Shown piece by piece: positions 17,213 to 37,185 of a DNA stretch of 44,585 nucleotides. Positions within the stretch are counted from its first letter, which is position 1; each line of letters opens with the position of its first letter. Source of the DNA: Bacteroidales bacterium (GTDB lineage Bacteria; Bacteroidota; Bacteroidia; Bacteroidales; FEN-979); NCBI GenBank assembly GCA_028706295.1, contig JAQWBQ010000024.1, positions 1 to 44,585 of the forward strand. Reading direction: 5' to 3'. The translations under genes and the position numbers were made by a program. The notes beneath the pieces are model-generated. The model was not told the origin of the DNA and did no database searches. It saw only the letters and a list, made by a program, of their open reading frames with translations.

Positions 17213-17823
17213 AAAGCCTAATCTCTGAAACCACCATGGAGCGGATCAAGCTCTATTACCTATCGGATAATGTCGAGCTTTCCGATCATGACCAGAATTT
17301 GCGCGAGCGTTGGGAAGCGGCCTATTCCATGCTGATCAACCAGAACGGGACCAAACGGGAGGTGGTCAAGATGCTCATGAAGGTGTACGATATCTCCGAT
17401 GTGCAGGCTTACCGGGATGTGTACAATTGCACCCGTTGTTTCGGCCCGATCCGGGGGATGGACCGGTACGCCCTGCGGGACATGGTGACCCAATGGGCCA
17501 TTGAAGCCTACCGGAAAGCCTCGGTAAAGAATGACTTCAAGGCCATCGGCATGCTGCTGGACAAGATCATCCGGGCCAACAACCTGGACAAAGAGGACCT
17601 TGAGCTGCCTGATCCTTCGAAGATCCAGCCGCCGGTTCAGTTGCTGTCGATCAATTACAATTTTCTCAACACCGAATATTTCAAGCTCATTGACCCCAAG
17701 GCGCAGCAGGCTCTGCTGGAACTGAACGAAAAAGTAATGGCGCTGATCGATGCTTCGCCCATTGCCGATTACAAGAATATCCTGCTTGCTGAAGAACCAA
17801 TCCTGGAAGATGCCCGAGATTAA
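17209..17823 (+). CDS. Putative terminase small subunit
   Basis: A 204-residue protein directly before, and overlapping by 14 bases, the large terminase gene. Residues 28-75 (RERWEAAYSMLINQNGTKRE followed by VVKMLMKVYDISDVQAYRDV) give a helix-turn-helix with the repeated helical pattern of phage packaging-initiation proteins; the C-terminal part is acidic and probably contacts the large subunit. Position, size and HTH support the small-subunit role of recognising phage DNA for packaging, but no diagnostic motif exists. Confidence 0.6.
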   Translation: MKSLISETTMERIKLYYLSDNVELSDHDQNLRERWEAAYSMLINQNGTKREVVKMLMKVYDISDVQAYRDVYNCTRCFGPIRGMDRYALRDMVTQWAIEAYRKASVKNDFKAIGMLLDKIIRANNLDKEDLELPDPSKIQPPVQLLSINYNFLNTEYFKLIDPKAQQALLELNEKVMALIDASPIADYKNILLAEEPILEDARD

Positions 17824-19315
17824 GGTCCGACCGGCTCCCTACCTGAACGATCCCCAGGTGGCCGTTCAGCTTTCCCACAGTCCGCACAAAGTGTTCATTG
17901 GCGGCCGCGGAGTGGGTAAGACAACTATCATTGCCGAAGATATCATCCGCTACTTTGTTGCCATGCCCCGGGGAAAGATATCCCTGAACGGGTTGACCTA
18001 TTTCCATATCAGGACCAAATCGCTGCCGCCGATCATCGACCACTTTGAACGGCGTGGACTTTACAGGGGTATCCATTATTTCGTCGGGCACAGGGCACCA
18101 AAACGAAATGAATGGCCGGAACCCTATGCCCCGCCGTTGGATTACTCAAACTGCATCCATTTTTACAACGGCTTCGTCGTTGAATTCAACTCCTTCGACC
18201 GGCCGGAGATGGCCCGCAGCGGTTCCTACGACGGTATGATCTTCGATGAATGTACGAAGCTGAAAAAGTCTGCCATCGAATCCGATGTGCTGCCAGCCAA
18301 CCGGGGCAACCGGGACCGCTTCGGCCACCTGAGGTTTCACCATGGCACCCTGTTCCTGGGAACCATGCCGCTGACCCCTGACGGGGACTGGGTGTTTGAA
18401 TACCAGGAACTGGCAAAAGAGATGCCTGCCCGGTATTGCTACCTTGAAGCATCCGCTACGCAGAATAGCAAAATTCTCGGTGAGATGTATTTCCGTGATC
18501 TCAAACGTGTTCTGCCAAAGATCGTTTATGACCTGGAAGTGCTCAACATCCGCCGCAAGCAGAACACCAACGGATTTTACCCGCTGCTGAAGTCTGCCGT
18601 ACATGGCTACACCGATTCCTACGAGTACAACTATATTGACCAGGCAGTTCTGCCTGCAGCCGGGAGTGTCTTTGATTGCCGTGCCGATCGTGATTGCATC
18701 GGCAGTGAACCGCTCTATGTCTCCTTTGATTTCGGCACCTCGCAGAACTGTATGATCGTGGCCCAATGGGACCGGTTGCTCAATGAGATCCGGATCATCC
18801 GCAACTTCTATGTCGAGAATGAAATGCTTTCAGTCCTGGTTCAGCAGTTTATCGATCACTACAAAGCCAAACCCGTCCGGTATGTATACCTCTATGGCGG
18901 TTCCGACGGCAACCGCAAAAATGATGCTGCTTCGCGCAACTCTTACTTTGATGATGTCAGAGAACAACTGGCAAAGGCCGGGTGGGAAGTCCAGCTACGC
19001 GCCGAACTGTACGAGGCACACCACATGGATAAATTCCAGTTCTGGTTCAAGTTCCTGTCGGGGGAGCAACCGGGACTTCCCGCCTTCCGCATCAATATGA
19101 ACAACGCCATGGAAACCTTTTTTTCCATGGACAATGCCCCTATTCTTCCGCAAGAGTTCAAGAAAGACAAATCGTCCGAACGCCGCAAAGATCAGCCCAG
19201 GTGGAAAGCCACCGACCTGAGCGATGCCGCGGACAATTTGTTTTACTGGCTGCTTAGCCCATTGGTAGGGGAGCAGTACCCCACCAATGAGATGATCCTG
19301 CTGCCCGGAAGATAG
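17810..19315 (+). CDS. Terminase large subunit
   Basis: A 501-residue packaging motor from ATG 17810 (an upstream in-frame ATG at 17750 lies inside the preceding gene). The N-terminal ATPase has Walker A GGRGVGKTT (31-39) and Walker B GMIFDECTK (142-150). The C-terminal nuclease begins with VSFDFGTSQN, where D307 is the expected first RNase H-fold metal ligand; another acidic cluster follows. The protein cuts concatemeric DNA and pumps it through the portal. Unusually, the portal gene is about 9 kb downstream and the capsid gene about 8.5 kb upstream. Confidence 0.92.
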   Translation: MPEIKVRPAPYLNDPQVAVQLSHSPHKVFIGGRGVGKTTIIAEDIIRYFVAMPRGKISLNGLTYFHIRTKSLPPIIDHFERRGLYRGIHYFVGHRAPKRNEWPEPYAPPLDYSNCIHFYNGFVVEFNSFDRPEMARSGSYDGMIFDECTKLKKSAIESDVLPANRGNRDRFGHLRFHHGTLFLGTMPLTPDGDWVFEYQELAKEMPARYCYLEASATQNSKILGEMYFRDLKRVLPKIVYDLEVLNIRRKQNTNGFYPLLKSAVHGYTDSYEYNYIDQAVLPAAGSVFDCRADRDCIGSEPLYVSFDFGTSQNCMIVAQWDRLLNEIRIIRNFYVENEMLSVLVQQFIDHYKAKPVRYVYLYGGSDGNRKNDAASRNSYFDDVREQLAKAGWEVQLRAELYEAHHMDKFQFWFKFLSGEQPGLPAFRINMNNAMETFFSMDNAPILPQEFKKDKSSERRKDQPRWKATDLSDAADNLFYWLLSPLVGEQYPTNEMILLPGR

Positions 19316-20189: not shown

Positions 20190-20528
20190 ATGAAAACATT
20201 TGTCAAGAAGTACATCGCAAAGGGAAAACAGGTAAAGGATCTGCAGATCGTAAAAATCTCCATCAGGATCGAAGATGTCCTCCAGCACGCTCATGAATAC
20301 AAGGGCGAACAGTTCATCACCTTCGAGGTGGCCAAATTGCAGAACCCCGACAGCTTCGGAAATGACTACACGGTTTATGTCAACAAACTGGTGGAATCCG
20401 AAACGGCCGTCGAGAAATCGCAGGTGAACGAACCGAAAAAAGAGATCAAGGCTGCAAAGCCCGGCAAGAAAACAGCCAAAAGCGGCAAGAAGACTACTGA
20501 AAAACAGTCCGATGAATTGCCCTTCTAA
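20190..20528 (+). CDS. Small protein with an SSB-like C-terminal tip
   Basis: A 112-residue protein with a compact beta/alpha N-terminal domain (about 1-70; KYIAKGKQVKDLQIVKISIR then ITFEVAKLQNP) and a lysine-rich linker with repeated GKKTAKSGKKT, ending in SDELPF. The last residues copy the acidic-LPF tip by which SSB recruits DNA-processing enzymes. Proteins of this general build are common in Bacteroidota mobile elements near radC and ardC-type genes. It may bind single-stranded DNA or dock to SSB partners; the N-terminal fold was not identified. It has its own terminator. Confidence 0.7.
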   Translation: MKTFVKKYIAKGKQVKDLQIVKISIRIEDVLQHAHEYKGEQFITFEVAKLQNPDSFGNDYTVYVNKLVESETAVEKSQVNEPKKEIKAAKPGKKTAKSGKKTTEKQSDELPF

Positions 20529-20623: not shown

Positions 20624-20788
20624 CTGAAATTTCTGCAAAAGTACCTATGGAAAATAAAACTGTCAAGGGCGACCTCCTGCCAGATCTGTCGCCTTTCAGG
20701 GTTATTCATCCCCCGAGTACTCGGGGGAATGACCCAACCCCTTGACATCATTTATTTCTCCCCGGTATGGCTGGTGGCAAAATTTCAG
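20624..20788 (+). promoter_or_regulatory. Repeated structured leader, copy 1 (before radC)
   Basis: Closing stem CTGAAATTT (20624-20632) with AAATTTCAG (20780-20788); inner stem AAGGGCG (20665-20671) with CGCCTTT (20690-20696); then the 18-base palindrome CCCCCGAGTACTCGGGGG (20710-20727) flanked by TCAT and ATGA. Single-stranded blocks AAAACTGTC, TTTCAGG and CATTTATT-like sequence are shared with copies 2 and 3. It ends 39 bases before the radC ATG. The ORF-free alignment suggests an RNA leader; the DNA could also be a binding region. Confidence 0.65.
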
Positions 20789-20827
20789 TACGAACCGCGG
20801 CCACAGCGCTGCATTAAACCATCAGCT

Positions 20828-21553
20828 ATGGAAACTTCAAACAACAACCAGACATTAACAAACTATGAACGCCGGATTCCCATGAGCGCCTAGGCGGAAG
20901 ACGACATCCCTTCCAGCAAACTGCTGCTCAAGGGATCGGCAAGCCTCTCGAACGCTGAACTGCTCAGCATCATCATCGGTAACGGCATCGAAGGAGAAAA
21001 TTCCCTCGACATTGCCATGAAGACCTTATCCCAGTGCGGAAACAACCTCTGCGAGTTCTGGCGCCTGGGGGTTACCGAGCTTCAGCAGATCAAAGGCATC
21101 GGCCCGAAGCGGGCAGTTCAGATCGTCGCCATGTTTGCCCTGGCACGTCGCCGGAATGAGAGTGAAGTCATCCTCAAGGACAAAATCAAGTCAAGTACAG
21201 ATGCCTTCCGGATCTTTCATTCTATCATCGGAGACCTGCCTTATGAAGAGTTCTGGGTACTGATGCTCAACCGGGCAAACAAAGTGATCCGTAAAGTCCG
21301 GATTTCCGAGGGTGGTATATCGGGCACCGTGGTGGATCCGAAGAAGGTCTTCAAGTTCGCCCTGGAGCTTCACGCCTGTTCGATCATCCTGGGTCATAAC
21401 CACCCTTCGGGACTGATCACCCCCAGCGAAGCCGACATCAAGATCACCAAAAAACTGGTGGATGCCGGCAAATTACTGGAGATCGCGGTACTGGACCATC
21501 TAATCATCGGACTGGATCAGTTTTATTCGTTCGCCGATGAAGGCAGTTTGTAG
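20828..21553 (+). pseudogene. radC: RadC-family JAB/MPN protein with in-frame amber codon
   Basis: From ATG 20828 the frame encodes a full-length RadC (241 codons) except for a TAG at 20891-20893, codon 22. The context is IPMSA-stop-AEDDIPSSKLL, where RadC proteins normally have a tryptophan (TGG), so a single G-to-A change explains it. After the stop come the helix-hairpin-helix region (LQQIKGIGPKRAVQIVA) and the intact JAB metal site HNHPSG...PSEAD. Without readthrough, translation could only restart at about 21017, losing the N-terminal part. RadC-like proteins on mobile elements are of uncertain function, possibly DNA repair or anti-restriction. A sequencing error or amber suppression are alternatives. 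Confidence 0.8.
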
Positions 21554-21560
21554 ATCAAAG

Positions 21561-21591
21561 GCCCCGGGAAACCGGGGCTCATTTTTCTTTT
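21561..21591 (+). terminator. Terminator of radC
   Basis: GCCCCGG (21561-21567), GAAA loop, CCGGGGC (21572-21578), then a T-rich run. The same GAAA-loop design occurs at 26856 and 27352. Confidence 0.88.
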
Positions 21592-21712
21592 GATTGTGTT
21601 TTGCTTCTGTTTTTTGATGAAATTGCATCGGATTACTTTTCCATAGAAATCTTTTAACATGGTATAACTGTAAATAGATATTTGATGTTCCACCAAACCA
21701 AAGGAATAATTT

Positions 21713-22453
21713 ATGGACGAATTCGATAAGATTGTAAAGACTTTAGAAAAAATCCAAACAGTATTCGGGTTAATAGGAGTGATCATTGTGATTACTCTTG
21801 TAATCGTTGGATTTTTGATTTATAAATACCTGGTAAAATCAGTTGAGGCAGTCGCAGAGGAAGCATCAAAGAAGTCCTTGATTAAGTTTCAATCCACTAT
21901 AGATGACAAATTAGAGACAAAGCTCAAATTGTTTTTTCGGAATGAAAATATTAGAAATGATTTAACCATTCACTTTGCAATCAAATCTATTGAAACCAAA
22001 CTAAGTATTTGGACTGAAACCTACCAATTGTATTTTGACTTTCAAAAAACATGGGATTTTGACAAGAAGCAACTTGATGATAAGATTGAAGAATACGATA
22101 GAATTTTTCAAGAGAACAGAGAGCATATTTTCTTGAATTCAGTATTTCTTGGTGGTTTCCTGACATCAAAATTAATTACCTTGAACAACTCAATTAGACA
22201 CGCAATTCGTACTCAATACAGAAAAAACCATTTAGCGTTCCCTTTACAAGATGGGGCACGGACAGAACAGGACAGGAGACGTTACTTAGATAAAATTGAT
22301 GCTATTTTGCCGGAAGTCGAATCATGGATAAATTTAAATCTAACTGTTGACCACAATACAAAAATGTGGGATTTCAATGAATCTGAACTTAAAATAATCG
22401 CCGAACAGAATAAGGAGAAATTTGAAGACTTATCAACGATAAAAGAAAATTAA
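21713..22453 (+). CDS. Membrane-anchored coiled-coil protein beside the EcoRII unit
   Basis: A 246-residue protein with one N-terminal transmembrane helix (about residues 17-41, VFGLIGVIIVITLVIVGFLI) and a long cytoplasmic helical, charged region. No family was recognised. The DNA is AT-rich like the following R-M genes and unlike the cassettes around it, so it probably arrived with them. It could be a defence accessory protein anchored at the inner membrane, or an unrelated passenger. Confidence 0.6.
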   Translation: MDEFDKIVKTLEKIQTVFGLIGVIIVITLVIVGFLIYKYLVKSVEAVAEEASKKSLIKFQSTIDDKLETKLKLFFRNENIRNDLTIHFAIKSIETKLSIWTETYQLYFDFQKTWDFDKKQLDDKIEEYDRIFQENREHIFLNSVFLGGFLTSKLITLNNSIRHAIRTQYRKNHLAFPLQDGARTEQDRRRYLDKIDAILPEVESWINLNLTVDHNTKMWDFNESELKIIAEQNKEKFEDLSTIKEN

Positions 22454-22550
22454 TTTTTTGTAAACAGCGGTTGGATCAGTTGAAGATCAACACGTTTGAG
22501 ATAGCTCGTCGCCAATGAACGTATTATAAAAATTTCAATGTTAATGTGGA

Positions 22551-23012
22551 ATGGATGTGCATAATGAAGTTCAGCGGAGTAAAAACATGTCCGCCATCCG
22601 CAGTAAAGGGACAAAAATTGAGGTAATCCTTGGTAAGTTAATGTGGGCAAAAGGGTTTCGGTACAGAAAAAACGACAAAACTGTTTTCGGGACACCGGAT
22701 TTCACTTTTAAGGGCCTGAAAATGGCAATATTTGTTGATAGTGAATATTTTCATGGAAAGGATTGGGAAACTGAGAAATATCGAATTAAGAGCAATGTTG
22801 AGTTTTGGCACAAGAAGATTGAGCAGAATATCCAAAGGGATCTTCGGGTCAATGAAGAGCTGTTAAAAAATAGATGGAAAGTTTTAAGGTTCTGGGGTCA
22901 GGATGTCAAAAAGAATCCTGAATTTTGCATCGATGAAATCAGCAAAGCCATTGAGTCGCAAAAAAGCGATAAAGTACTCAGAGATAAGGGAAAGATTCAA
23001 AATTCAGGTTGA
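22551..23012 (+). CDS. vsr: Vsr-like DNA mismatch endonuclease
   Basis: A 153-residue protein of the very-short-patch repair family: RSKNMSAIRSKGTKIE at the N-terminus, GTPDFTF with the probable catalytic Asp50, and FWHKKIEQNIQRDLRVNEEL followed by RWKVLRFWGQDV. In Vsr the enzyme nicks next to T:G mismatches produced by deamination of 5mC in Dcm sites. The usual zinc-binding HxCFWH segment is replaced by VDSEYFHG, so this belongs to a variant subgroup. Its gene overlaps the following Dcm-type methylase by 80-110 bases in another frame, which ties the two functionally. In E. coli the order is dcm then vsr. Confidence 0.85.
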   Translation: MDVHNEVQRSKNMSAIRSKGTKIEVILGKLMWAKGFRYRKNDKTVFGTPDFTFKGLKMAIFVDSEYFHGKDWETEKYRIKSNVEFWHKKIEQNIQRDLRVNEELLKNRWKVLRFWGQDVKKNPEFCIDEISKAIESQKSDKVLRDKGKIQNSG

Positions 23013-24165
23013 CAAGGCCACTGATGACCAGTTGGCCAGTTTTACACATTATATTCATAACCAAAGGAACGGATCTGCTCAATGTTATCTCCAGGGTGCA
23101 ATTGACTACTGTAGAGATTTTAATCTTGCAGAGGATGTTGATTTGTTTTCGGAGTATAATCCTATGATATGGGATATTCCCTTTCCTGTTCCGGAGCCAC
23201 CACTTTTTAAGTTCATTGACCTGTTTGCCGGAATCGGAGGGATAAGGCTCGCTTATCAAAATCTTGGGGGAAAAAGTGTCTTTACCTCTGAAATTGATAA
23301 TTATGCCAAGAAAACCTATGAAGCCAATTTTGGAGAGGTTCCTTTCGGTGATATTACCAAAATTGATGAGAACCTGATTCCGGACCATGATATTTTGTTG
23401 GCAGGATTTCCTTGCCAGCCATTTTCAATTGCAGGTGTTTCCAAAAAAGCAAGTTTAGGCAGGGAACATGGGTTTAAAGATAAAACTCAGGGTACTCTGT
23501 TTTTTGATATTGCCAGGATTTTGGAGGCAAAACAGCCTAAAGCTTTTATGCTGGAAAATGTGAAAAACCTGGTATCTCATGACAAGGGTAACACCTTCAA
23601 AATTATTGCCGGCACGTTAACCGATCTGGGTTATAAGATATTTTTCAAGGTCCTTGATGGAAAGTATTATGTTCCGCAACACAGAGAAAGGATAATAATC
23701 GTAGGGTTTAGGGAAGAAATATATGGGAACGATGTGCCTTTCACTTTCCCTTCAAAGTCCGAAGGTGATCAGATTTTCAGGACAATACTGGAGGATGAGC
23801 CAGAAGAAAAATATACATTATCTGATAAATTGTGGAATTACCTGCAGGATTATGCAGTAAAGCACAAGGCAAAGGGAAATGGCTTTGGTTTCGGAATGAC
23901 TGATCTTAATGGAGTAGCGCGTACTTTAAGCGCAAGGTACTATAAGGATGGTTCTGAAGTTTTGGTTCCCCAGCCCGGTAATAATCCACGCCGGATGACT
24001 CCACGGGAATGTGCTAGATTAATGGGTTTTCCGGATAATTTTATCATTCCCGTATCTGATAACAGGGCTTATAAACAATTTGGAAATTCCGTGATAGTTC
24101 CAATGATACAGGCAGTTGCAGAACAAGTAACCAAAGTAATGCTCAATGAACAGAATCGTAAATGA
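22903..24165 (+). CDS. Dcm/EcoRII-type DNA (cytosine-5) methyltransferase
   Basis: A 420-residue C5 methylase very close in sequence pattern to E. coli Dcm and M.EcoRII: FIDLFAGIGGIRLAYQNLGG (motif I), LLAGFPCQPFSIAGVSKK with catalytic Cys171 (IV), ENVKNLVSHDKGNTF (VI), PQHRERI (VIII), KHKAKGNGFGFGM and RTLSARYYKDGSE (target recognition), FGNSV (X). The target is therefore probably CCWGG or a near relative. Starts at 22903 or 22933 are both possible, and even 23161 would keep motif I; the N-terminal extension matches the length of Dcm, so I keep the long form. It protects DNA from the EcoRII-like nuclease encoded next. Confidence 0.93.
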   Translation: MSKRILNFASMKSAKPLSRKKAIKYSEIRERFKIQVDKATDDQLASFTHYIHNQRNGSAQCYLQGAIDYCRDFNLAEDVDLFSEYNPMIWDIPFPVPEPPLFKFIDLFAGIGGIRLAYQNLGGKSVFTSEIDNYAKKTYEANFGEVPFGDITKIDENLIPDHDILLAGFPCQPFSIAGVSKKASLGREHGFKDKTQGTLFFDIARILEAKQPKAFMLENVKNLVSHDKGNTFKIIAGTLTDLGYKIFFKVLDGKYYVPQHRERIIIVGFREEIYGNDVPFTFPSKSEGDQIFRTILEDEPEEKYTLSDKLWNYLQDYAVKHKAKGNGFGFGMTDLNGVARTLSARYYKDGSEVLVPQPGNNPRRMTPRECARLMGFPDNFIIPVSDNRAYKQFGNSVIVPMIQAVAEQVTKVMLNEQNRK

Positions 24166-25318
24166 TGCAATTGAATCTGTAACCAAAAGCAGTAAGTCGT
24201 TTTGTAAGTTCATTTCTGCAAACGATGCAGGTAAAACTGGCGGACATCAGGAAGGGTTTTATATCCCGAAGAATTCCATTTCGTTAATGTTTGATTCACC
24301 AGGAGTAAAAGGAACCAACCTTGAAAGGTTTGTCACAATAAAATGGCAGGGTGATTTCGAGACACAAAGTCGATTTATTTATTATGGACAAGGTACCCGT
24401 AATGAATATCGGTTAACACGTTTCGGTCGTGGTTTTCCCTTTCTAACGGATGACCATGTTGGCGATTTGCTTATCCTATCCCACATCGGAGAAGATTACT
24501 TTGAAGGTTTTGTTCTAGAAACAGATGAAGATGTAGAAGAGTTCTTTTCAGCCTTCAACCTCTCCTCTGGTGACACAAACAAGTTAATTGATAAAAGTAA
24601 TTTTGTTACAGCCCCTGTTAAAATTCTTGAATGCTTCAGAAATTACCTGAAGTCACTTACAAGGGATTTCCCGTTTACAATAGAATTGGCCACAAACGCG
24701 CGGGACTGCTACAATAATTCTTTTGGTATTTCGGATAAGATTATCCAAAGCAAGCCCGATGAAATATTATTACATTGGTTAAATGCTGAATTTGAATTAT
24801 TTAAAACTATTGAAAATGATCGGTATTCCGCACGAATAACATCACCTTTTAAGACAGTTGAAGAATTAATAGGATGTGCAAATACAATTCTGAACCGAAG
24901 AAAAAGCAGAGCCGGGAAATCACTGGAGCACCATTTGGCGGAAATATTTACAAAAAACAGCCTGAGGTTTGATGTTCAGGTTATGACCGAGGAGAATAAA
25001 CGTCCGGATTTTATTTTTCCGGGGGCGGCAAATTACCATGATGAATCATATGATCCAAACAGTTTGGTATTCCTCGCTGCAAAAACAACCTGCAAAGACA
25101 GATGGCGTCAGGTCCTGAACGAAGCTGACCGCATTCCGGAGAAACATTTATTTACACTCCAACAAGGCATATCTTTGAATCAGCTTGCCGAAATGTATAA
25201 ATATAATGTCAGACTGGTTGTTCCTAAACCGTACATTTCCTGTTTTCCCACAAGCTACCAAAATCAAATTTTAACACTGGATCATTTTCTTGGCTATGTA
25301 AAAAGTAAGCAGGCATAG
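24146..25318 (+). CDS. EcoRII-type restriction endonuclease
   Basis: A 390-residue homologue of EcoRII (type IIE). The N-terminal effector domain contains FISANDAGKTGGHQEGFYIP and GTRNEYRLTRFGRG, matching EcoRII blocks that bind the allosteric site. The C-terminal catalytic domain has NRRKSRAGKSLEHHL, KRPDFIFPG (about D288) and AAKTTCKDRWRQVLNEADRI (about K313), the PD-(D/E)XK core. EcoRII needs two or more CCWGG sites and spares DNA with few of them. The gene overlaps the methylase by 20 bases, giving a vsr-M-R operon. The frame is intact, so the system may be active. Confidence 0.93.
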   Translation: MNRIVNDAIESVTKSSKSFCKFISANDAGKTGGHQEGFYIPKNSISLMFDSPGVKGTNLERFVTIKWQGDFETQSRFIYYGQGTRNEYRLTRFGRGFPFLTDDHVGDLLILSHIGEDYFEGFVLETDEDVEEFFSAFNLSSGDTNKLIDKSNFVTAPVKILECFRNYLKSLTRDFPFTIELATNARDCYNNSFGISDKIIQSKPDEILLHWLNAEFELFKTIENDRYSARITSPFKTVEELIGCANTILNRRKSRAGKSLEHHLAEIFTKNSLRFDVQVMTEENKRPDFIFPGAANYHDESYDPNSLVFLAAKTTCKDRWRQVLNEADRIPEKHLFTLQQGISLNQLAEMYKYNVRLVVPKPYISCFPTSYQNQILTLDHFLGYVKSKQA

Positions 25319-25372
25319 CCCATTTGCTTACTCAGTCATAGTTCTCAGGACTTCCAGCGCCTTTTTAACCAC

Positions 25373-25538
25373 GAAATTTCCGCAAAATTACCTGCGAAAA
25401 ATCCGCTTCGCTATAAAACTGTCAAGGGCGCCCTCCTGACGGAACCAGCGCCTTTCAGGTTTATTCAGATTGTGCCAATCTGACCTTCACCCTTGCCATT
25501 ATTTATTTTTCTCGGTATAGCTCCCTGGCTAAAATTTC
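25373..25538 (+). promoter_or_regulatory. Repeated structured leader, copy 2 (before the ArdC-like gene)
   Basis: Closing stem GAAATTT (25373-25379) with AAATTTC (25532-25538); CGCA (25381-25384) with TGCG (25393-25396); inner stem AAGGGCGC (25424-25431) with GCGCCTTT (25448-25455); variable stem TCAGATTG (25465-25472) with CAATCTGA (25476-25483). The variable stem differs completely from copy 1 yet pairs perfectly. Confidence 0.65.
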
Positions 25539-25552
25539 AAGTTTAACCAGGT

Positions 25553-25595
25553 GGGCCAGATACCAAGATAAGACCGCAGGGCAGCGGCAAATTCA
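25553..25595 (+). promoter_or_regulatory. Start-proximal leader motif, copy i
   Basis: GGGCCAGATACCAAGATAAG followed by CCGCAGGGCAGCGGCAA directly before the ATG. The same GCCAGAnnCCA...AGGGCAnnGGCAA pattern precedes the genes at 26636 and 27633. Confidence 0.5.
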
Positions 25596-26510
25596 ATGAT
25601 CAAATCAGAAATCTATGCCGCGATCACCGAAAAGATCATCGCCAACCTCGAATCCTGCGGCAGTTGGCAGCAAATGTGGCGCACGGTCTCCCCGGTGAGC
25701 CTTAATGGACACATCTACCGGGGCATAAACCGGCTGATTTTGGCCAACGACCACTACCAGAGCCGGGTTTACGGCACTTTTCAGCAGATCAGGGCCAATG
25801 GCGGCCAGGTCAGAAAAGGCGAAAAGTCCACTCTCGTCGTATTCTGGAAGCGTCTCAAAAGCACGGATCCTGTCACTTTGGAAGAGAAAACAAAGTATCT
25901 GCTTCGGTACTATCACGTTTTCAACAGTGAACAGGCTCATTTCGATGAGATCGGCAAACAGAAGATTGAAAAGATGAACGGCTCCACACTGCATCAAACA
26001 GTAATGGAAGCTGAGCAAATCATTGCCGGTTACAGAGATGCGCCGAGGATCATCCACACGAATTCCGAAAATGCACCCTGCTACTACCCGTCCATCGATG
26101 AGATCCATCTTCCGCCGATGTCATCGTTTGTCACAGCAGAAGCTTATTTCAGAGTGGCTTACCATGAATATTGCCATAGCACCATGCACGAATCCCGCCT
26201 GAATCGCGCGGAAGGCAGAGGCAACAAATTCGGCGATGAAAACTATACCAAGGAAGAGCTGGTGGCCGAACTTGGCAGCGCCTTCCTGGCAAACATGGCA
26301 GGGTTCTCAGACCTGCAAAATACCACGGCCTACATCCGGAACTGGTCAGGACACCTGCGGGAGAACCATAAGTTGATCGTGTGGGCTGCATCCAGGGCAG
26401 AAAAAGCTGCCGAGTATATCCTGGGCGTCCACAATACGGAATCTTCGGACGATCAGCAGGAACAACAGGAATCTCTGGTGGAAACAGAGACTGCAGCTGT
26501 TCCCTTTTAA
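25596..26510 (+). CDS. ArdC-like antirestriction protein (ssDNA-binding domain plus zinc protease)
   Basis: A 304-residue protein. Residues 1-130 fit the ArdC-type N-terminal ssDNA-binding domain (WRTVSPVSLNGHIYRGINRL, VYGTFQQIRANGGQVRKGEK, STLVVFWKRL). The C-terminal part is a zincin-type metallopeptidase with AYHEYCHSTMHESRLNR (H190, E191, H194) and EELVAELGSAFLANMAG, whose glutamate is the likely third ligand. ArdC proteins protect incoming DNA on conjugative plasmids from restriction. Carrying one beside an EcoRII unit and a second methylase gives this element both attack and shield. The last residues AAVPF weakly recall the SSB tip. Confidence 0.85.
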   Translation: MIKSEIYAAITEKIIANLESCGSWQQMWRTVSPVSLNGHIYRGINRLILANDHYQSRVYGTFQQIRANGGQVRKGEKSTLVVFWKRLKSTDPVTLEEKTKYLLRYYHVFNSEQAHFDEIGKQKIEKMNGSTLHQTVMEAEQIIAGYRDAPRIIHTNSENAPCYYPSIDEIHLPPMSSFVTAEAYFRVAYHEYCHSTMHESRLNRAEGRGNKFGDENYTKEELVAELGSAFLANMAGFSDLQNTTAYIRNWSGHLRENHKLIVWAASRAEKAAEYILGVHNTESSDDQQEQQESLVETETAAVPF

Positions 26511-26532
26511 TCATTCAGAGGTCTTCAATCAG

Positions 26533-26562
26533 GGCCATGGGTCAAAAGCTCATGGCCTTTTT
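26533..26562 (+). terminator. Terminator of the ArdC-like gene
   Basis: GGCCATG (26533-26539) pairs with CATGGCC (26551-26557), followed by a run of Ts. Confidence 0.8.
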
Positions 26563-26586
26563 CATGTTCCAACCATTCATTCATTC

Positions 26587-26635
26587 AACGGCGCGCCAGA
26601 AGCCAAAACAAGTCCTTAGGGCAAAGGCAATAAAT
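26587..26635 (+). promoter_or_regulatory. Start-proximal leader motif, copy ii
   Basis: GGCGCGCCAGAAGCCAAAAC then AGTCCTTAGGGCAAAGGCAA before the ATG, matching the stretch before 27633 almost base for base. The larger folded leader is missing here. Confidence 0.5.
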
Positions 26636-26848
26636 ATGAGTACACGTTACAAGGGCGATCCCCGGCAGATCACAGCCAGATTCTCCAGCACCTGTCACAC
26701 CTGTGGAAAGAAAATCCACAAAGGAGAACAGATCATCTTTTGGCCAAACGGCAAAAAGGCCGGTCATTTGGCTTGCGATGAAGCGGATTACCGGCAATCG
26801 TTGGCTTCTTTTGAAGATGAAGATGCTTACAACCGCATGTACAGATAA
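26636..26848 (+). CDS. Small zinc-finger protein (PARP-type-like)
   Basis: A 70-residue protein starting at ATG 26636. It has one Cys/His cluster, CHTCGKKIHKGEQIIFWPNG followed by GHLACDEADY, that is C-x2-C...H-x2-C, in the spacing of a PARP-type or treble-clef finger. The C-terminal 20 residues are acidic. Such small fingers on mobile elements may bind DNA or RNA; the role here is unknown. It stands alone between two terminators. Confidence 0.7.
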   Translation: MSTRYKGDPRQITARFSSTCHTCGKKIHKGEQIIFWPNGKKAGHLACDEADYRQSLASFEDEDAYNRMYR

Positions 26849-26855
26849 GCAAACG

Positions 26856-26877
26856 GGGGCGGAAACGCCCCTTTTTT
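26856..26877 (+). terminator. Terminator of the zinc-finger gene
   Basis: GGGGCG, GAAA loop, CGCCCC, then six Ts. Confidence 0.88.
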
Positions 26878-26885
26878 GCTCGGAT

Positions 26886-26940
26886 GCACTTTTTTCTTTC
26901 AATCCTGCAAGAGAAAAAAGGTGCCAAAAAAGAAACCCGG
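26886..26940. repeat. Dispersed hairpin element, copy C
   Basis: GCACTTTTTTCTTT (26886-26899) pairs with AGAGAAAAAAGGTGC (26910-26924) with a bulged G, then CAAAAAAGAAACCCGG. Same plan as copies A and B about 7.3 kb upstream. Confidence 0.6.
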
Positions 26941-26991
26941 CGGGGCAGCTTTTGTGAAAAGCAAGCAAAACCCAACGCACCTCTAATACTC

Positions 26992-27174
26992 GAAATTTCG
27001 GCAAAGTTACCTGCGGAAAAACCCGTTCCGTGTACCCCGGACTGTAAAACTGTCAAGGGCTTCCGGTGAAATGACCGTCGCCTTTCAGGTTCTTTCATCC
27101 CGCCTTCGTCGTGAATGACCCTAACCCATTGACATTATTTATTTTCCTCGGTGGCTGCCTTCGGCAAAAATTTC
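26992..27174 (+). promoter_or_regulatory. Repeated structured leader, copy 3
   Basis: Closing stem GAAATTT (26992-26998) with AAATTTC (27168-27174); inner stem AAGGGC (27055-27060) with GCCTTT (27080-27085), extended inside by CCGGT/ACCG (27063-27076). The variable stem is weaker here, but the flanking TCAT (27095-27098) and ATGA (27115-27118) still pair. The block TTGACATTATTTATTTT matches copies 1 and 2. Confidence 0.62.
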
Positions 27175-27211
27175 ATTATTAACCGTGGGCGACCACATAA
27201 ATTCAAACGCT

Positions 27212-27346
27212 ATGGAACGCTACTATCAAATCTTTGTCGATCAAATGGATTCGATCTACTTCGAAGGCTACTGTGAACAAATGCAACAGTCCAATCCCGA
27301 AAGGCTTCAGTTCGAATGGAATGAATTCCTCAGAATGATTAAATAA
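27212..27346 (+). CDS. 44-residue acidic protein behind leader copy 3
   Basis: A short open frame, MERYYQIFVDQMDSIYFEGY to FLRMIK, 44 residues long, rich in aromatic and acidic residues. It is supported by context: a full leader copy ends 37 bases before its ATG, and a strong terminator begins 5 bases after its stop. No family was recognised. Confidence 0.65.
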   Translation: MERYYQIFVDQMDSIYFEGYCEQMQQSNPERLQFEWNEFLRMIK

Positions 27347-27351
27347 CGAGG

Positions 27352-27379
27352 GTCCCGGGAAACCGGGACTCTTTTTTTT
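27352..27379 (+). terminator. Terminator of the 44-residue gene
   Basis: GTCCCGG (27352-27358), GAAA loop, CCGGGAC (27363-27369), then eight Ts. Confidence 0.9.
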
Positions 27380-27436
27380 GTTCTCGCAAGGGCCTCAAAA
27401 CGGACTTCCCATCGGACATCACAGCGCTTGTTACTC

Positions 27437-27548
27437 AAAATTTATGGCAAAGGTAACCTCATGAAAATATCTGTCACTAAAGGCGTTGCCCTTCGGGTTC
27501 TTTCAGCACGCCATGGCGTCCTGACCCTAACCTTTGTTCCAGAATTTT
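27437..27548 (+). promoter_or_regulatory. Repeated structured leader, copy 4 (shortened)
   Basis: A 112-base version. Closing pair AAAATT (27437-27442) with AATTTT (27543-27548), shifted by one register from the other copies. The variable stem is TCAG-c-ACGCC (27503-27512), AT, GGCGT-c-CTGA (27515-27524). The inner AAGG/CCTT stem is reduced and the CATTTATT block is missing. Confidence 0.55.
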
Positions 27549-27582
27549 CATTCCGGTTTTGCAGGTAGCATAAATTTTAATT

Positions 27583-27632
27583 AACCGGCGAGCCAGAAGC
27601 CATAAACAGTCCTCAGGGCAGAGGCAAACATC
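27583..27632 (+). promoter_or_regulatory. Start-proximal leader motif, copy iii
   Basis: AACCGGCGAGCCAGAAGCCA then CAGTCCTCAGGGCAGAGGCA before the ATG at 27633; nearly identical to the segment before 26636. Confidence 0.5.
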
Positions 27633-28049
27633 ATGTCAAAATTAACAGCAGAATTAACCAAATCAGTCAGCGGCAACGGAAACGGCAACGGCAACGGAAG
27701 CCATGTACCCAAACAGATCACGGCAGCTCCGGCTCCGGTGGCCGAAAAGAAGGAACCCGAACCACCGGCACCGGAACTCAAAAAGGAGCTGACATTGATG
27801 GAGCGCATCCTCAAGGTGGAGAACCTCCAGCTGGTCATTGAAAAACGGGGAAAGCTGGTCCAGACACGCAGCGAACTGGAGCGGTTCCAGACGGCCTCCA
27901 ACGATTTCAACTGTTCCATGAGACTGAACGACTCAGACGGAAATGTCTTCACCACCAGTTTCACTCCGGGCATCAAGAAGGTCATCGAGTTTCTCAAGTC
28001 CTCCTTCGACGCCAGCATCGCCGAGACTGAACAAAAGATCACCTTCTGA
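27633..28049 (+). CDS. Hypothetical cassette protein with coiled coil
   Basis: A 138-residue protein. The N-terminal 50 residues are low complexity (a GNGNGNGNG run, then a proline- and lysine-rich segment). Residues 52-85 (LTLMERILKVENLQLVIEKR) are a probable coiled coil, and the C-terminal part has a small beta-rich unit and a final helix. No family was recognised. It lies behind leader copy 4 and before a strong terminator. Confidence 0.65.
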   Translation: MSKLTAELTKSVSGNGNGNGNGSHVPKQITAAPAPVAEKKEPEPPAPELKKELTLMERILKVENLQLVIEKRGKLVQTRSELERFQTASNDFNCSMRLNDSDGNVFTTSFTPGIKKVIEFLKSSFDASIAETEQKITF

Positions 28050-28154: not shown

Positions 28155-28502
28155 ATGAATGCATCATTTATCCGTTTATGGGAGGCGTTGGAGATCATGG
28201 ATTCCATGGATGTCCATGGCAAACCCGCCAGGTTCCAGGTCAAATTCGTAACTGCAAACCGCACCACCAAAGAGGGCGGCGAGATCATCGAGCTGAAGGA
28301 TGCCAGCAAATGCCCGGTAAGGACAAAAAACGGGCAGGAGATATACCCTGAGCGGAAAAATCTGCAGGCCCCGGATCGGATCACCAAAAATCCCAACCAC
28401 TGGGAGAACTCGACCCGGAACGTCAGGTTGCCGAATGGCCAGAAACGCAAGCTCCATATCCGTTTGATCATTGAATTCAACAACATGAAAGTCTGTTACT
28501 GA
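28155..28502 (+). CDS. Hypothetical phage protein before the portal gene
   Basis: A 115-residue, mostly beta, basic protein with no recognised motif. Its stop overlaps the portal start by one base, so it heads the portal-lysis operon. A structural or chaperone role is possible from position only. Confidence 0.6.
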   Translation: MNASFIRLWEALEIMDSMDVHGKPARFQVKFVTANRTTKEGGEIIELKDASKCPVRTKNGQEIYPERKNLQAPDRITKNPNHWENSTRNVRLPNGQKRKLHIRLIIEFNNMKVCY

Positions 28503-29839
28503 TGAAACAAACAGTCATTCACGAAAACGGGATCACCTTTCTGCCGGGAGCCAAGGCGGTCGCAACCTCGTACAAAAAAACAGAGGATGCTGTCACTGAA
28601 CAGGTGGTGATCCCCAAGGATTACAGCGCCTGGCCCTGGTCTCCCTGGGGCGATGACAATTTGTTTCCTCAGAATGTTTTGGCGGACCTTGAAAAGAATT
28701 CCATTGCCATCCGGGCCCTGGAAAAAAGAAAGACGGTCCACTATGGCCGCGGAATCCTGGCCTACCGGGATAATGGCAAGGATAACCAGGGCGCCCCGGT
28801 CCGAGAGCCGGTGACCGACCCTGAGGTGGTCGAGTTCCTGCGGATCAACCGGCTGAACTTTCAATGGATCGACCTGATCGGCAGCCTGGAGATTTTCGCC
28901 AACGGCTGGATCGAGTTCATCCTGAACAAGGGCCGCGACCGGATCAACCGGTTGTATGTCAAAGATCCGGCCTATTGCCGCAATGCGAAGATGGACTCAG
29001 ATCATCCTACAAGGATTCCCTTCCTCTTTTATTCCGCCCAATGGGAATATTCTCCCAATGAAGAGGATGGTTCACTGGTAAGGATCCCGATGTTCGATCC
29101 GGCAAGGTATGACGGAACCCGTTACCAGGATCCGCAGTTTGCCTACCCGGTGTTCTATCGGTCGTTCAACAAATCCTATTACCATCTGTCGGTCTGGAAC
29201 GGCATCCGGGAAAGTGGATGGCTCGGCATTGCCAACAAGGTGCCGCGCCTGAAGCAAGCCATCATGCGCAACCAGATGACCATCAAGTACCACATTGAAA
29301 TTCCCGACGACTATTTCACCAATCGTTACCCTTCGCCGGATTATACCCGGGAGCAACGAGAAGCCGCCCGCACCAGGATACTGGCCGAGATGAACGACTT
29401 CCTATCCGATGTCGAAAACTCAGGCAAGGCCTTCGTGTCGTTCAACTTCTTCAGCAAGTTCAAAAGCGAGTACCTCTCCGGCTGGAAGATCAACGTGATC
29501 GACAATAAGCTCAAGGACGACGCATATTTGCCCGATTCGCAGGCCGCCAATTCTGAAATACTGTTTGCCATCGGGGTCGATCCCTGCCTGGTGGGATCCG
29601 GTTTGCCCGGGGGAAGCCTGGGTGCCGGCAGCGGATCGGATAAGCGGGAGGCTTTCTGGCAACTCAATGCCGAGATGGGCATTTACCGGCAAATCAGCCT
29701 GGAGCCGCTTTATTTCATCCGGGATTTCAACAGATGGTCACCCGACATCGAATTCGATTATGTGACCGTGGACACCTCCCAGACCATGCAGGACCATCCA
29801 ACGAAAATTGACAAACGCATCGACAAGAACATCGCATGA
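28502..29839 (+). CDS. Phage portal protein
   Basis: A 445-residue protein with the layout of tailed-phage portals: an N-terminal region with IPKDYSAWPWSPWGDDNLFP, a central alpha/beta wing (SLEIFANGWIEFILNKGRDR), a helix-rich stem (REQREAARTRILAEMNDFLS), and a C-terminal PGGSLGAGSGSDKREAFWQL segment similar to the glycine-rich crown helix start of Bacteroidota prophage portals. It forms the dodecameric ring at the capsid vertex to which the terminase docks. The following gene overlaps by four bases. Confidence 0.8.
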   Translation: MKQTVIHENGITFLPGAKAVATSYKKTEDAVTEQVVIPKDYSAWPWSPWGDDNLFPQNVLADLEKNSIAIRALEKRKTVHYGRGILAYRDNGKDNQGAPVREPVTDPEVVEFLRINRLNFQWIDLIGSLEIFANGWIEFILNKGRDRINRLYVKDPAYCRNAKMDSDHPTRIPFLFYSAQWEYSPNEEDGSLVRIPMFDPARYDGTRYQDPQFAYPVFYRSFNKSYYHLSVWNGIRESGWLGIANKVPRLKQAIMRNQMTIKYHIEIPDDYFTNRYPSPDYTREQREAARTRILAEMNDFLSDVENSGKAFVSFNFFSKFKSEYLSGWKINVIDNKLKDDAYLPDSQAANSEILFAIGVDPCLVGSGLPGGSLGAGSGSDKREAFWQLNAEMGIYRQISLEPLYFIRDFNRWSPDIEFDYVTVDTSQTMQDHPTKIDKRIDKNIA

Positions 29840-33630: not shown

Positions 33631-36600
33631 TCAGTCATGCAGACACCTGATGGGAAAAGCATTTGATCTTGAAGAAGGATAAAGGGAAACGGAGAAGTTA
33701 ATCGTATTCATCCCATGGGAAAGCGCTTTGTAGCTTCCCCAGGAGGAAGATGTCCAGAACAATACCGCAAAATCCTCAAAACTCCAGCTCGAGTTCAGGT
33801 AGAAGACTCCACCGGTTAAAGCCCTGAATCCGGAAATAAACGTGTCCTGAAGCGGTTTACCGGCAAAGCCGAAACCATTATAGTAATTGCACAAAACAGT
33901 CCAGTCGTTTTCTGTCGGTATATGCCAGCCGGGAGGGCAGATGCCCTGTCCTGCCGGCACGTCGTCATACCGCATCATCTCGTCCCATTGGTATAGTCCG
34001 CCATATTTTGAACATTTGACAGGGTCATTTCCGTAGCAGAATTTTTCATCTATACAGTTGTCGAACTGAACCTGGGAAGAGGGAATCTGCGCTCCCCGGT
34101 TCAGGTTGGCAGCCATCCAACACTGCGTTCCGATCTGAACCGTGGGATAGGTCTTGCCATCGCGGATATCGTTCAGCATATTGCCGCAAATGAATGGGGC
34201 TGTAGCCTGGACAATGATGGTTTTCGACTTGTTGGCGCTGCACTGGAACACGTTCGTATAGGTATAGGTGATGGTCTTTGTACCGATTCCTGCAACAGCA
34301 GGGTCAAAGATGCCTGCCGATACTCCGGCACCGGAGTAGATCCCGTTCAACGGGATGCCGCCCTTGAGCTTGATTGGTTTTGCATTGAGGGTGGTGATCG
34401 TGTCGAAACACGGAGTGAATGTGATAAGCGGGGCAAGGGATCCGCTCAGAATGATCTTATTGGAGGTGGCCGGATTTGATGAAACACAGCTTAAGGTTGA
34501 AGTCATGACGCAACGCACGCTGTCATTGTTCAATGGGTTGTAAGTAAATGTCGAAGAGTTGGTTCCGGCATTCAATCCGTTGACCTTCCATTGGTAGGAC
34601 GGGTTTGTGCCGCCGTTAGCGGGAGTTGCCGTAAAAGTAACCGAAGATCCCGGGCAGAATGGGTTGGGATTGGCTGTGATGGATACCGATGCAGGCAGTC
34701 CCGGTATGCCTGTCATGACAAGTGCATTTGAGGTGGCCGGGTTCCCTGATACGCAGGCCAGGGAAGAGTTCAGAAGGCAGGTGACGACATCGCCGGAAAT
34801 TGGATTGAAGGTGAAGTTAGGGCTGTTTGTACCTGCATTAACCCCGTTTACTTTCCACTGGTAACCGGCTAACGGGCCGCCGTTGACCGGAGCGGCTGTA
34901 AATGTCACTGAAGTCCCGATGCAAAATGGATTGGATGAGGCGGAAATAGAAACGCTGACCGGCAGCAGCGGGTTCACAATCATCGATATGATATTCGATG
35001 AAGCGGGATTGTTCGAGATGCAGACTGTTATGGAAGAAGTCAGGATACATTGTATCTGGTCGCCATTGACAGGGGTATAGGTGAATACAGGGCTGTTGCC
35101 GCCTGCATTCGATCCGTTCACTTTCCATTGATAAGCAGGCGAAGTTCCAGGGTTTGTAGGTACGGCTGTGAATGTAACCGGAGTTCCGGAGCAGATGTTA
35201 TTACCTGAAGCGGTAATGGAAACTTTGACGGAGTCGCCAGGGTTTACTGTTACGGTAAAATCAACCGGAGTCCCAGAACAGTTTCCCACTTTGGGGGTCA
35301 CTGTATATTTGACGGAGCCAGGTGTGGGCAAATTATCGATAAGAATCTGGTTGATCACCAGCCCGGAATCAGCGCTGAAACCCGTAATATTACCCGAAGT
35401 CAGGGAAGAAGTCCAGTGAAACATCGTACCTGTAACATTGGAGGTCAGCGAAATATTGGTGCTTTCACCGGAACAAATGGATTTAGTTAATTGATTATTG
35501 GTGACTTGCGGAACAGAGGTGGTAATAAGTTGGGCGGTGTCGTAACCGGAGCAGGCATTACCGTTGGTGACTTTCACACAATAATTACCTGCAGTACCGG
35601 TAATGAATGTCTGACTATTGCCAACAACCAACCCTGTTCCCACATTCTTCCATTCATAGGTGCATCCCAAGCAGAAACCAGCATCAAAAGTCGCTGTATT
35701 GCCAGTGCAAATCGTTTGGTCTGGACCCGCGGAGGTTGCAGGACTTGGATAAATGGTGATGGTTCGCCATGAAGTATCGGTGCGATTATCATTATGACGG
35801 ACGTAAAGTTCAACAGTATATGTACCGGGGTTTGAAAAGAGATGTGCAGGTGTTGCAAGAAAAGAAACATTTGATCCTCCCGATGCAGGATCACCAAAGT
35901 TCCATCTAATAGTATCTGCCGGAGGCCAGATATCTCCTGAGAAATGAAGAGAGTCACTCTGGCAGCCACTTCCTAAATAATGAAGGTAGGCTTTGTATTT
36001 TTGAAGAAATTGTGGCAAACCATAATAGACATTATTTCCATTCAGGCCTATTGCATTTTTCTGAAAATTGCATCCTGATCCATAGATTTCAGGATTATGG
36101 ATAACCCCAACGGAGTCTTTGGAAAATATGGGGGTGTAAATTTTTAAATCGGGACCTAATTGTAAATCCTCATAAGTTGTTGGAGCAAATGTCGAGTCAA
36201 CAATGGCCTCAGACATCATGAACTGAAGAGAATCTGTTTTTGTTGCATCATACTGATATAATAAAACAAACGGAAAGTTGGATACAGAATTATAGGGCCA
36301 ATAGGCATGAAGGTAAAGAAAATGGTTATCGGATGAAAAACATTCTTTACCAGGGATATATTTTACATTTCTGTATTTTGGATAAAAGTTAAAAATTGGT
36401 GTGACAACTCCTGTTTGATCATTAAAATTGCAAAATTCAGCTATCGTATCTCTCATATAACAAGCTACTAGTCTGTTACCATCCGGTGAAATTTTGAGCC
36501 ATCCACCATATTCTCCAGGGGAATAGGATGGATATACTGTGCTGGGGCTGATAACAGGAGGTAAATTTATTCCGGAATCGGTAATTTTGTATGAAAGGTA

Positions 36601-37185
36601 TACTTGCGGGTTTACACTCCGAACAATAAGCCATGCATCCTTATTATTATGATGTCGTGTTCCAGACATCCATGATGTTGCATTTGCACCGCCAGGAACA
36701 GGTATGTTTTTCATTCCTACCACAACGTCCCCATTGCCAGAGTTCAATTGCATATCAAGCAGGGAATAATATAACCCTTGTGAAAACAAAGGCGCATAAC
36801 CATAAGAAGGAATACAGAAAACAAAATACTGATCGGGATTGGCCAGACATTTTATGGCATAAACGGGCTGACCAAAACTGAGTGAACCAATCAAACCGAA
36901 ACCGTTAGGCATTACCTGGTTATTTTTATCCCATATGTATCCACCATCTGAATAAAAAAGAAGATTTCCCAGTGAATCGGAGATGCTAACGGGAGAGTTC
37001 TCATTGCTCATGGCACAACCTGATACCGGAACCGGAGGGAATATGTTAAAATCAAGCCCGGCATGACTGCCGAATCTCCATTGATTATTTTCACCTTGAG
37101 AAAAACAAAGAAAGGGTATTAACAATGTCAACAAGATGCATAGGTCAATCCTGTCAAGCAATCGTTTATTACCCTTTCTCGACAT
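33631..37185 (-). CDS. Giant secreted surface protein 1 (PKD, Ig-like repeats, FISUMP)
   Basis: A 1184-residue protein with a signal peptide (LCILLTLLIPFLCFSQ). Residues 30-400 resemble the N-terminal beta-propeller-like region of gliding-type proteins (NNQWRFGSHAGLDFN; YSLLDMQLNSG). Then a PKD domain (IRWNFGDPASGG... PGTYTVELYVRH), an SprB-like repeat (GPDQTICTG), at least three tandem Ig-like repeats of about 85 residues (SYQWKVNGLNAGTNS; TSTLSCVSSNPATSN), and a C-terminal FISUMP domain (MAANLNRG, KYGGLYQWDEMM, CPPGWHIPTENDWT, FWTSSSWG). It is predicted to be exported to the cell surface; I see no clear T9SS tail domain. It lies in antisense to the phage late operon. Its C-terminal 700 residues are almost the same as in surface protein 2. 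Confidence 0.85.
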   Translation of the reverse strand: MSRKGNKRLLDRIDLCILLTLLIPFLCFSQGENNQWRFGSHAGLDFNIFPPVPVSGCAMSNENSPVSISDSLGNLLFYSDGGYIWDKNNQVMPNGFGLIGSLSFGQPVYAIKCLANPDQYFVFCIPSYGYAPLFSQGLYYSLLDMQLNSGNGDVVVGMKNIPVPGGANATSWMSGTRHHNNKDAWLIVRSVNPQVYLSYKITDSGINLPPVISPSTVYPSYSPGEYGGWLKISPDGNRLVACYMRDTIAEFCNFNDQTGVVTPIFNFYPKYRNVKYIPGKECFSSDNHFLYLHAYWPYNSVSNFPFVLLYQYDATKTDSLQFMMSEAIVDSTFAPTTYEDLQLGPDLKIYTPIFSKDSVGVIHNPEIYGSGCNFQKNAIGLNGNNVYYGLPQFLQKYKAYLHYLGSGCQSDSLHFSGDIWPPADTIRWNFGDPASGGSNVSFLATPAHLFSNPGTYTVELYVRHNDNRTDTSWRTITIYPSPATSAGPDQTICTGNTATFDAGFCLGCTYEWKNVGTGLVVGNSQTFITGTAGNYCVKVTNGNACSGYDTAQLITTSVPQVTNNQLTKSICSGESTNISLTSNVTGTMFHWTSSLTSGNITGFSADSGLVINQILIDNLPTPGSVKYTVTPKVGNCSGTPVDFTVTVNPGDSVKVSITASGNNICSGTPVTFTAVPTNPGTSPAYQWKVNGSNAGGNSPVFTYTPVNGDQIQCILTSSITVCISNNPASSNIISMIVNPLLPVSVSISASSNPFCIGTSVTFTAAPVNGGPLAGYQWKVNGVNAGTNSPNFTFNPISGDVVTCLLNSSLACVSGNPATSNALVMTGIPGLPASVSITANPNPFCPGSSVTFTATPANGGTNPSYQWKVNGLNAGTNSSTFTYNPLNNDSVRCVMTSTLSCVSSNPATSNKIILSGSLAPLITFTPCFDTITTLNAKPIKLKGGIPLNGIYSGAGVSAGIFDPAVAGIGTKTITYTYTNVFQCSANKSKTIIVQATAPFICGNMLNDIRDGKTYPTVQIGTQCWMAANLNRGAQIPSSQVQFDNCIDEKFCYGNDPVKCSKYGGLYQWDEMMRYDDVPAGQGICPPGWHIPTENDWTVLCNYYNGFGFAGKPLQDTFISGFRALTGGVFYLNSSWSFEDFAVLFWTSSSWGSYKALSHGMNTINFSVSLYPSSRSNAFPIRCLHD

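Follow-up and report, generated by a model that had tools for sequence, protein, structure and literature searches.

Four noncoding blocks in the window, the whole 44,585-nucleotide (nt) stretch of Bacteroidales DNA analyzed here, probably act as single-strand promoters in the manner of Frpo of the F plasmid. When single-stranded, the minus strand would fold into a hairpin, with the right arm as template and the left arm as the non-template strand that carries the host −7 box TAnnTTTG. Folding would set the −33 region about 20 bp from the −7 box, and side hairpins would absorb the extra DNA of the left arm. From this layout we infer that host RNA polymerase would bind, start close to the AAATTT at the hairpin base and run out of the hairpin on the single strand to transcribe the next gene, and that strand state would gate the process: in double-stranded DNA, most copies would have no in-register promoter on either strand and the genes would be off. 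The genes served would be those for RadC, ArdC, the single-stranded DNA-binding protein (SSB) and small proteins of unknown function. The structure of the blocks, their covariation, box, spacing, placement and gene association were established by computation. The parts of the four blocks are as follows.

20624..20788, minus strand: block 1, before radC; a hairpin with the putative promoter elements in its outer stem and the arm junction at its tip
20636..20643, minus strand: block 1 −7 box, TACTTTTG on the minus strand, in the left arm
20664..20666, minus strand: block 1 −33 TTG, 20 nt ahead of the −7 box; this copy has no insert
20742..20767, plus strand: block 1 right (template) arm, TTGACA to GGTA, spacing 21
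20779..20786, no strand assigned: block 1 closing arm AAAATTTC; predicted RNA start about here, from the box position of −12 to −5 (PMC9723704)
25373..25538, minus strand: block 2, before ardC; a hairpin with a side hairpin at about 25394-25411 in the left arm
25383..25390, minus strand: block 2 −7 box, TAATTTTG on the minus strand
25493..25517, plus strand: block 2 right arm, TTGCC to GGTA, spacing 20
26992..27174, minus strand: block 3, before the gene for a 44-residue protein (p44); long left-arm insert
27002..27009, minus strand: block 3 −7 box, TAACTTTG on the minus strand
27129..27153, plus strand: block 3 right arm, TTGACA to GGTG, spacing 20
27437..27578, minus strand: block 4, before the gene for a 138-residue protein (p138); second sequence type, spacer ATGAAAAT/ATTTTCAT
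27448..27455, minus strand: block 4 −7 box, TACCTTTG on the minus strand

Each block is a long, imperfect inverted repeat. The left arm of copy 1 reads TTGACAG and then TACTTTTGC on the minus strand, and its right arm reads TTGACA, GGTA and AAATTTC, in that order, on the plus strand. The first-pass annotation, which described four related folded leaders here, had missed both this layout and the minus-strand −7 box of the left arm. Its blocks lie where it placed them, except that copy 4 runs to about 27578 with the closing arm TAAATTTT. The structured order of stems that it gave also stands, but its AAGGGC/GCCTTT pairing does not: in folds and alignment, the conserved strand GT(C/A)AAGGG pairs instead with downstream CCCTTGAC, closing the junction of the arms.

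The −7 box of the Bacteroidota sigma-A promoter is described as TAnnTTTG at position −12 to −5 (PMC9723704), and as TANNTTTGY when given together with a −33 site (PMC12632263). A TTTG to AAAC change was reported to abolish promoter activity (PMC4747536). Of the 96 blocks, from the family described below, that have at least 110 nt upstream, 73 carry the strict box in the left arm, read on the minus strand. The base after it is Y in 68/75, which fits TANNTTTGY; one of its two free positions varies, and at the other, 70/75 have C in the minus-strand reading. On the plus strand, TAnnTTTG, the only promoter consensus scored, was found in none of 92 full spans from −110 to +140, core included. As a control, 21,580 bases of upstream flank contained the box 11 times on the minus strand and 7 times on the plus strand. 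Since the plus-strand hairpin lacks a −7 box and points away from the gene, the asymmetry fits one polarity, and the favored minus-strand polarity agrees with gene direction.

A −33 TTG combined with a box at −12 to −5 predicts a gap of 20 nt. The type-A pattern allowed the right arm to be measured in 41 blocks (the other 59 of 100 could not be measured with it), and the TTG-to-TA distance was 20 nt in 35 and 21 nt in 6. The corresponding left-arm distance ranges from 20 to 60 nt over 36 trusted rows and is 28–60 nt in 31 of them. Five of the 41 left spacings were dropped for a too-close anchor (L028, L010 at 8114, L032, L033 and L044), which leaves the right spacings unchanged; one earlier arm listing enters some blocks twice via a second anchor. 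The left-arm distance varies because of inserts, and by eye this excess is able to fold back on itself (GCGAA/TTCGC in block 2, GTACC/GGTAC in L032, ATACCG/CGGTAT in L026). With the right spacing constant and the left one variable, the −33 and −7 elements are brought into register only by folding of the minus strand. As linear DNA, most copies have no in-register promoter; the folded minus strand can have one. Three sequence types differ in their spacer duplexes (GGAAAATAAAA/TTTATTTCTCC; ATGAAAAT/ATTTTCAT; ATCGA with TTGGA/TCCAATCGAT), and all three retain the box; single examples inspected by eye also keep 20 nt in the right arm.

These spacings also bear on whether the blocks are ordinary double-stranded promoters on the minus strand that give leftward antisense RNA. 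Block 1 does have TTG-N20-TAnnTTTG in its linear minus strand, being one of three matches in the window, all minus, to a strict TTG-N17-22-TAnnTTTG. However, the linear distance of 28–60 nt in 31 of the 36 trusted type-A rows is too long for such a promoter, and leftward RNA would enter the end of the upstream gene. We find this explanation scarcely credible.

The blocks belong to a family. BLASTN with block 2 gave a match in 27 of the 43 genomes of the taxonomic family, its own included. We scored covariation on a structure-based alignment (A6) of 32 relatives and 36 pairs, against 500 column shuffles, which ignore relatedness, and against structures with partners slid by 1–3 columns, which retain it. 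The score was 0.167, compared with 0.074 ± 0.006 in shuffles (0/500 as high) and 0.031–0.105 in slid structures. Paired cells made up 87.7% (80.9% in shuffles), and pairs changed on both sides numbered 15 (9.3 in shuffles). Among the five measures, further pair types came out weakest, at 28 against 23.9, with 16 of 500 shuffles as high. RNAalifold on the untrimmed alignment gave a poor structure and was set aside. A covariance model built from the 32 A6 rows was used to search 97 sources picked from the window and 129 loci at an E-value of 0.05. Its 119 matches reduced to 103 distinct cores and, after removal of three reverse-strand palindrome matches, to 100 blocks; the box count of 73/96 was made without those three. 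The 100 blocks are not independent, as they come from related phages and 32 of them lie on loci fetched by a portal query. No Rfam family matched the blocks at its gathering score. The first-pass annotation was therefore right that this is a conserved covarying structure outside Rfam, and its proposed covariance-model search did find homologs.

The model was also run on wider samples. In a class-wide sample with stricter filters, the model matched only the window's own genome (1/395). In an order-wide sample, 6/198 genomes matched: the window's own, one further member of its family and four that belong to three different families. The 13 divergent matches in those last four genomes (L130-L136) were scored after the idea had formed. 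Nine have the strict box and four have it with one mismatch; the plus-strand box occurs in none of them. Their right spacing is 20 nt in eight, 19 in two and 22 in two, with one unmeasured (script window 14–23). Most of their spacers have little sequence in common with those of the window, although the L130 block at 14220 is close to type A. The divergent copies in other families thus retain the layout. The L130, L132 and L136 blocks adjoin probable defense genes, namely an SNF2/PLD helicase with an Eco57I-type methylase, a TOTE primase-helicase, and an AAA protein with RloB.

One of these relatives (G606, contig 57, another family) has a block before radC and near a tyrosine recombinase. A 15-kb stretch at about 63–78 kb of that contig encodes a relaxase (PF03432), a coupling protein (PF02534), ArdC and a NikA-like protein (below the cut-off). 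The block lies about 11–14 kb from the relaxase and coupling-protein genes, and these two genes and ardC are oriented opposite to it. Relaxase and coupling-protein genes are typical of elements transferred as a single strand.

Folded as single-stranded DNA, three of the four minus strands do better than their dinucleotide shuffles: copy 1 (z of −5.3), copy 2 (−3.8) and copy 4 (−3.3). Uncorrected fold energies were better for the minus strand in 47/48 blocks as RNA and 41/48 as DNA (48 of 106 candidates passed trimming). We dropped this strand preference as main evidence because shuffles attribute most of it to base composition. A fold-based hairpin search of 23 related loci without a model match (portal identity of about 27 to 74%) returned 11/206 sites, against 4/131 in reverse orientation; three of the 11 are duplicates, from one record held in two collections. 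The same filter recovered only 8/53 sites on five loci with known blocks, and five sites inspected were unconvincing as block analogs. Queries with block 2 and with one type-B block found no similar blocks in the plasmid and phage collections.

Another explanation is a structured RNA leader, with transcripts starting upstream of the block and the folded leader controlling the next gene. This is the molecule that the first-pass annotation preferred. Strong covariation with standard pairs would be just as expected of an RNA, each window block stands directly before a gene followed by a terminator-like hairpin, and two pairs of an inner stem are frequently G-T when read on the plus strand (in 10 and 18 of 24 rows). 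Against it, the plus strand has no −7 box in any of the 92 spans (−110 to +140) or the 13 divergent copies, the conserved strand of the left arm is complementary to a promoter box, the 20-nt spacing in the right arm matches the host promoter, and no Rfam family matched at its gathering score. With 73/96 boxes on the minus strand, we consider the RNA leader unlikely, and a cis-regulatory RNA was probably the wrong choice of molecule. A DNA hairpin, which the same annotation had rated as less likely, is now the better of its two readings.

The genes that bear on the blocks in the window are listed here.

20190..20528, plus strand: 112-residue protein with an acidic tail, DELPF, just ahead of block 1
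20828..21553, plus strand: radC-like gene after block 1, with an in-frame stop at codon 22; the open reading frame (ORF) is listed from 21017
25596..26510, plus strand: ArdC-like protein (ArdcN and MPTase-PolyVal)
27633..28049, plus strand: p138, function unknown, after block 4

A second radC copy in the same genome (C118, L051) has an open frame. A terminator-like hairpin follows each of the four downstream genes (at 21560, 26531, 27348 and 28056), which bears out the first-pass description of blocks placed before anti-restriction and accessory genes that each end in a terminator. Over the 100 blocks, the next gene encodes RadC in 23, ArdC in 21, p138 in 19 and p44 in 15; another ORF follows in 17, and five blocks run into a contig edge. 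Two of the 17 other genes encode canonical SSB (PF00436, E-values of 2e-25 and 6e-23). The plus-strand ORF after the block exceeds the best minus-strand ORF in 73/95.

We take the acidic tails of the 112-residue protein and of most ArdC copies to be SSB-like. The 112-residue protein has a confident N-terminal fold prediction with no PDB match at an E-value of 0.001, and for this reason we do not call it an SSB. Binding of single-stranded DNA has been suggested for ArdC-N domains (PMC5512222). A 51-nt repeated leader precedes ardC, a zinc-finger-like gene and the p138 gene (25540-25590, 26580-26630 and 27577-27627). Its outer copies are 61% and 82% identical to the middle copy, and one instance has no block.

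All 68 blocks with a marker on their locus lie downstream of the terminase-side marker or upstream of the portal-side marker, on the same strand (16 blocks have both markers, 27 only the terminase-side one and 25 only the portal-side one; 32 of the 100 blocks have no marker on their stretch). Of these placed blocks, 32 are on portal-query loci, which are biased, and 36 are on other loci. Four related loci (L056, L063, L064 and L066) have terminase and portal with no RadC or ArdC match between them, and no block either.

The blocks could also be DNA hairpins with another job, either a single-strand initiation site at which RNA polymerase or a primosome makes primers, or an attC-like recombination site. 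By eye, four copies (L022, L030, L037 and L040) are cut near the tip and joined to other DNA, which might reflect recombination at the hairpin; the block of L037 adjoins an EcoRII-type cassette. Set against another job, all 68 placed blocks share the orientation of the phage genes and 78/95 precede one of four gene families, as promoters would. An attC-like site has the further difficulty that no PF00589 recombinase is encoded on the window contig; all five matches in this genome (G000) sit on other contigs. We regard this explanation as very doubtful.

Several observations weigh against single-strand promoters. The left arm lacks a strict box in 23/96 blocks (two carry the box inside the match and 21 have imperfect versions), and a minus-strand box also lies within 140 nt downstream in 19/96, a count not sorted one by one. 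The non-template −33 is TTT rather than TTG in 16 of the 41 type-A blocks. Predicted folds leave the −7 box only moderately unpaired (pairing 0.34–0.75), with the neighboring spacer reaching 0.89, and copy 3 folds no better than its shuffles (z of −0.9). Covariation by itself carries the same expectation for RNA and for single-stranded DNA. Shuffle-corrected energies favor the minus strand in 36/48 (DNA) and 31/48 (RNA), which does not separate the strands. Nor does wobble polarity at single mismatches in 45 sequences (three of the 48 blocks were omitted as degenerate), where A-C against G-T was 7–8 against 1–3 with DNA energies and 6–7 against 5–6 with RNA energies. The plus-strand ORF is not longer than the best minus-strand ORF in 22/95. 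L072 and L081, two more distant phages in which RadC or ArdC is encoded between terminase and portal, gave no model match and no convincing analog. A relaxase search limited to PF03432 found it in 0/14 genomes. Finally, the elements from which Frpo is known enter in single-stranded form, and the window is a tailed prophage; phages of that kind deliver double-stranded DNA.

For the blocks to act as single-strand promoters in a phage, the single strand could arise by strand displacement during replication, or through entry by another route. A cruciform in supercoiled DNA is a possible source of the fold as well, but a less likely one because the arms are so unequal.

By its gene content, the window represents a tailed prophage from an uncultured member of the Bacteroidales. 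It is one whole contig (G000:C38; JAQWBQ010000024.1) of a 4.0-Mb genome and carries a plus-strand tailed-phage gene set, which also includes a DUF6712 protein, an endolysin and a tape-measure-like protein.

130-204: tRNA-Arg, ahead of the phage gene set
7128-8363, plus strand: S49-type protease
17750-19315, plus strand: terminase large subunit (phrog_2, E-value of 1.9e-11)
28502-29839, plus strand: portal protein (weak Pfam and PHROG matches; 33% identity to the annotated portal of Polaribacter phage Leef_1)

The contig ends within the prophage. The counterpart prophage of a relative (G007, contig 24) is bordered on one side by tRNA-Arg. Close to its opposite end is a tyrosine recombinase gene, and just past this end, about 45.8 kb from tRNA-Arg, 15 bp of the 3′ end of the tRNA are repeated. 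Named portal relatives are mostly metagenome-assembled genomes labeled Bacteroidales or Bacteroidetes. One record titled Alphaproteobacteria (L092, SACF01000030.1) holds the same prophage, with a portal 97% identical to that of the window, and is probably a binning or naming error. No conjugation genes were found among the window proteins scanned.

Three other regions of the prophage deserve mention. A cassette of Vsr, a cytosine methylase and an EcoRII-like restriction endonuclease lies between radC and block 2 (22551-25318). A 1308-residue DnaG-type primase (1500-5426) has 875 C-terminal residues that match no Pfam family (E-value of 0.1) or solved structure (E-value of 1). Opposite the phage genes, two minus-strand ORFs of more than 1100 codons each (33631-37185 and 38174-41665) have common repeats about every 267 nt.

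More tentatively, and with less than even confidence, we suggest that temperate tailed phages may run an establishment program of ArdC, RadC, SSB and small proteins from folded single-strand promoters, may have a functionally important single-stranded phase, and may share this module with relaxase-bearing elements. If so, anti-restriction genes could switch on in that phase, as they do for some conjugative plasmids. Single-strand promoters are documented for conjugative plasmids, and a form of them in Bacteroidota, with a distinct box consensus, would carry the mechanism into a further phylum. The phage setting is the surprising part, since it raises the question of when phage DNA is single-stranded enough to fold and be transcribed. 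The hairpin may also serve as a marker for unknown counter-defense genes; candidates are p44 and p138, which follow blocks, and the co-traveling protein with the SSB-like tail.

Among known systems, Rfam leaders and Bacteroides small RNAs likewise place covarying structure before genes; they differ from the blocks, which match no family at its gathering score. Integron attC sites differ in that no integron-type tyrosine recombinase was found on the block contig. The early promoters of phage N4 are short DNA hairpins, and so offer a case of a phage promoter that is a DNA hairpin, as we propose here. N4 uses a phage polymerase carried in the virion (PMC4496689), whereas the blocks have host sigma boxes and a fold of about 150 nt or more. 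No phage virion RNA polymerase turned up among the window proteins scanned, a scan that included no targeted search for one. Among the matches listed in the open-licence literature, no such promoters are described in Bacteroidota or, N4-type hairpins aside, in tailed phages.

The closest parallel is with Frpo1 and Frpo2 (ssi) of the F plasmid, which are likewise described as non-coding stem-loops of one strand that rebuild −35/−10-type boxes (PMC9849209, PMC11541004). F has two copies, before ssb and other establishment genes, with Frpo2 preceding ssb (PMC9849209). One survey searched for Frpo in the leading regions of 21,907 potential conjugative elements, and the word "Bacteroid" is absent from its main text (PMC11541004). 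Unlike Frpo, the blocks have Bacteroidota −33/−7 boxes and side hairpins in the left arm, occur mainly in tailed prophages and, in the window, do not lie in the leading region of a conjugative element. Block 2 had no DNA match at an E-value of 1e-3 among 72,556 PLSDB plasmid records, a search in which no Frpo sequence itself was compared. Because of this and because the window is not a leading region, we do not file the blocks as members of Frpo. We propose instead that they function like it: as computed, their folded strand rebuilds the host boxes, and they precede the genes for ArdC (21/100) and SSB (2/100).

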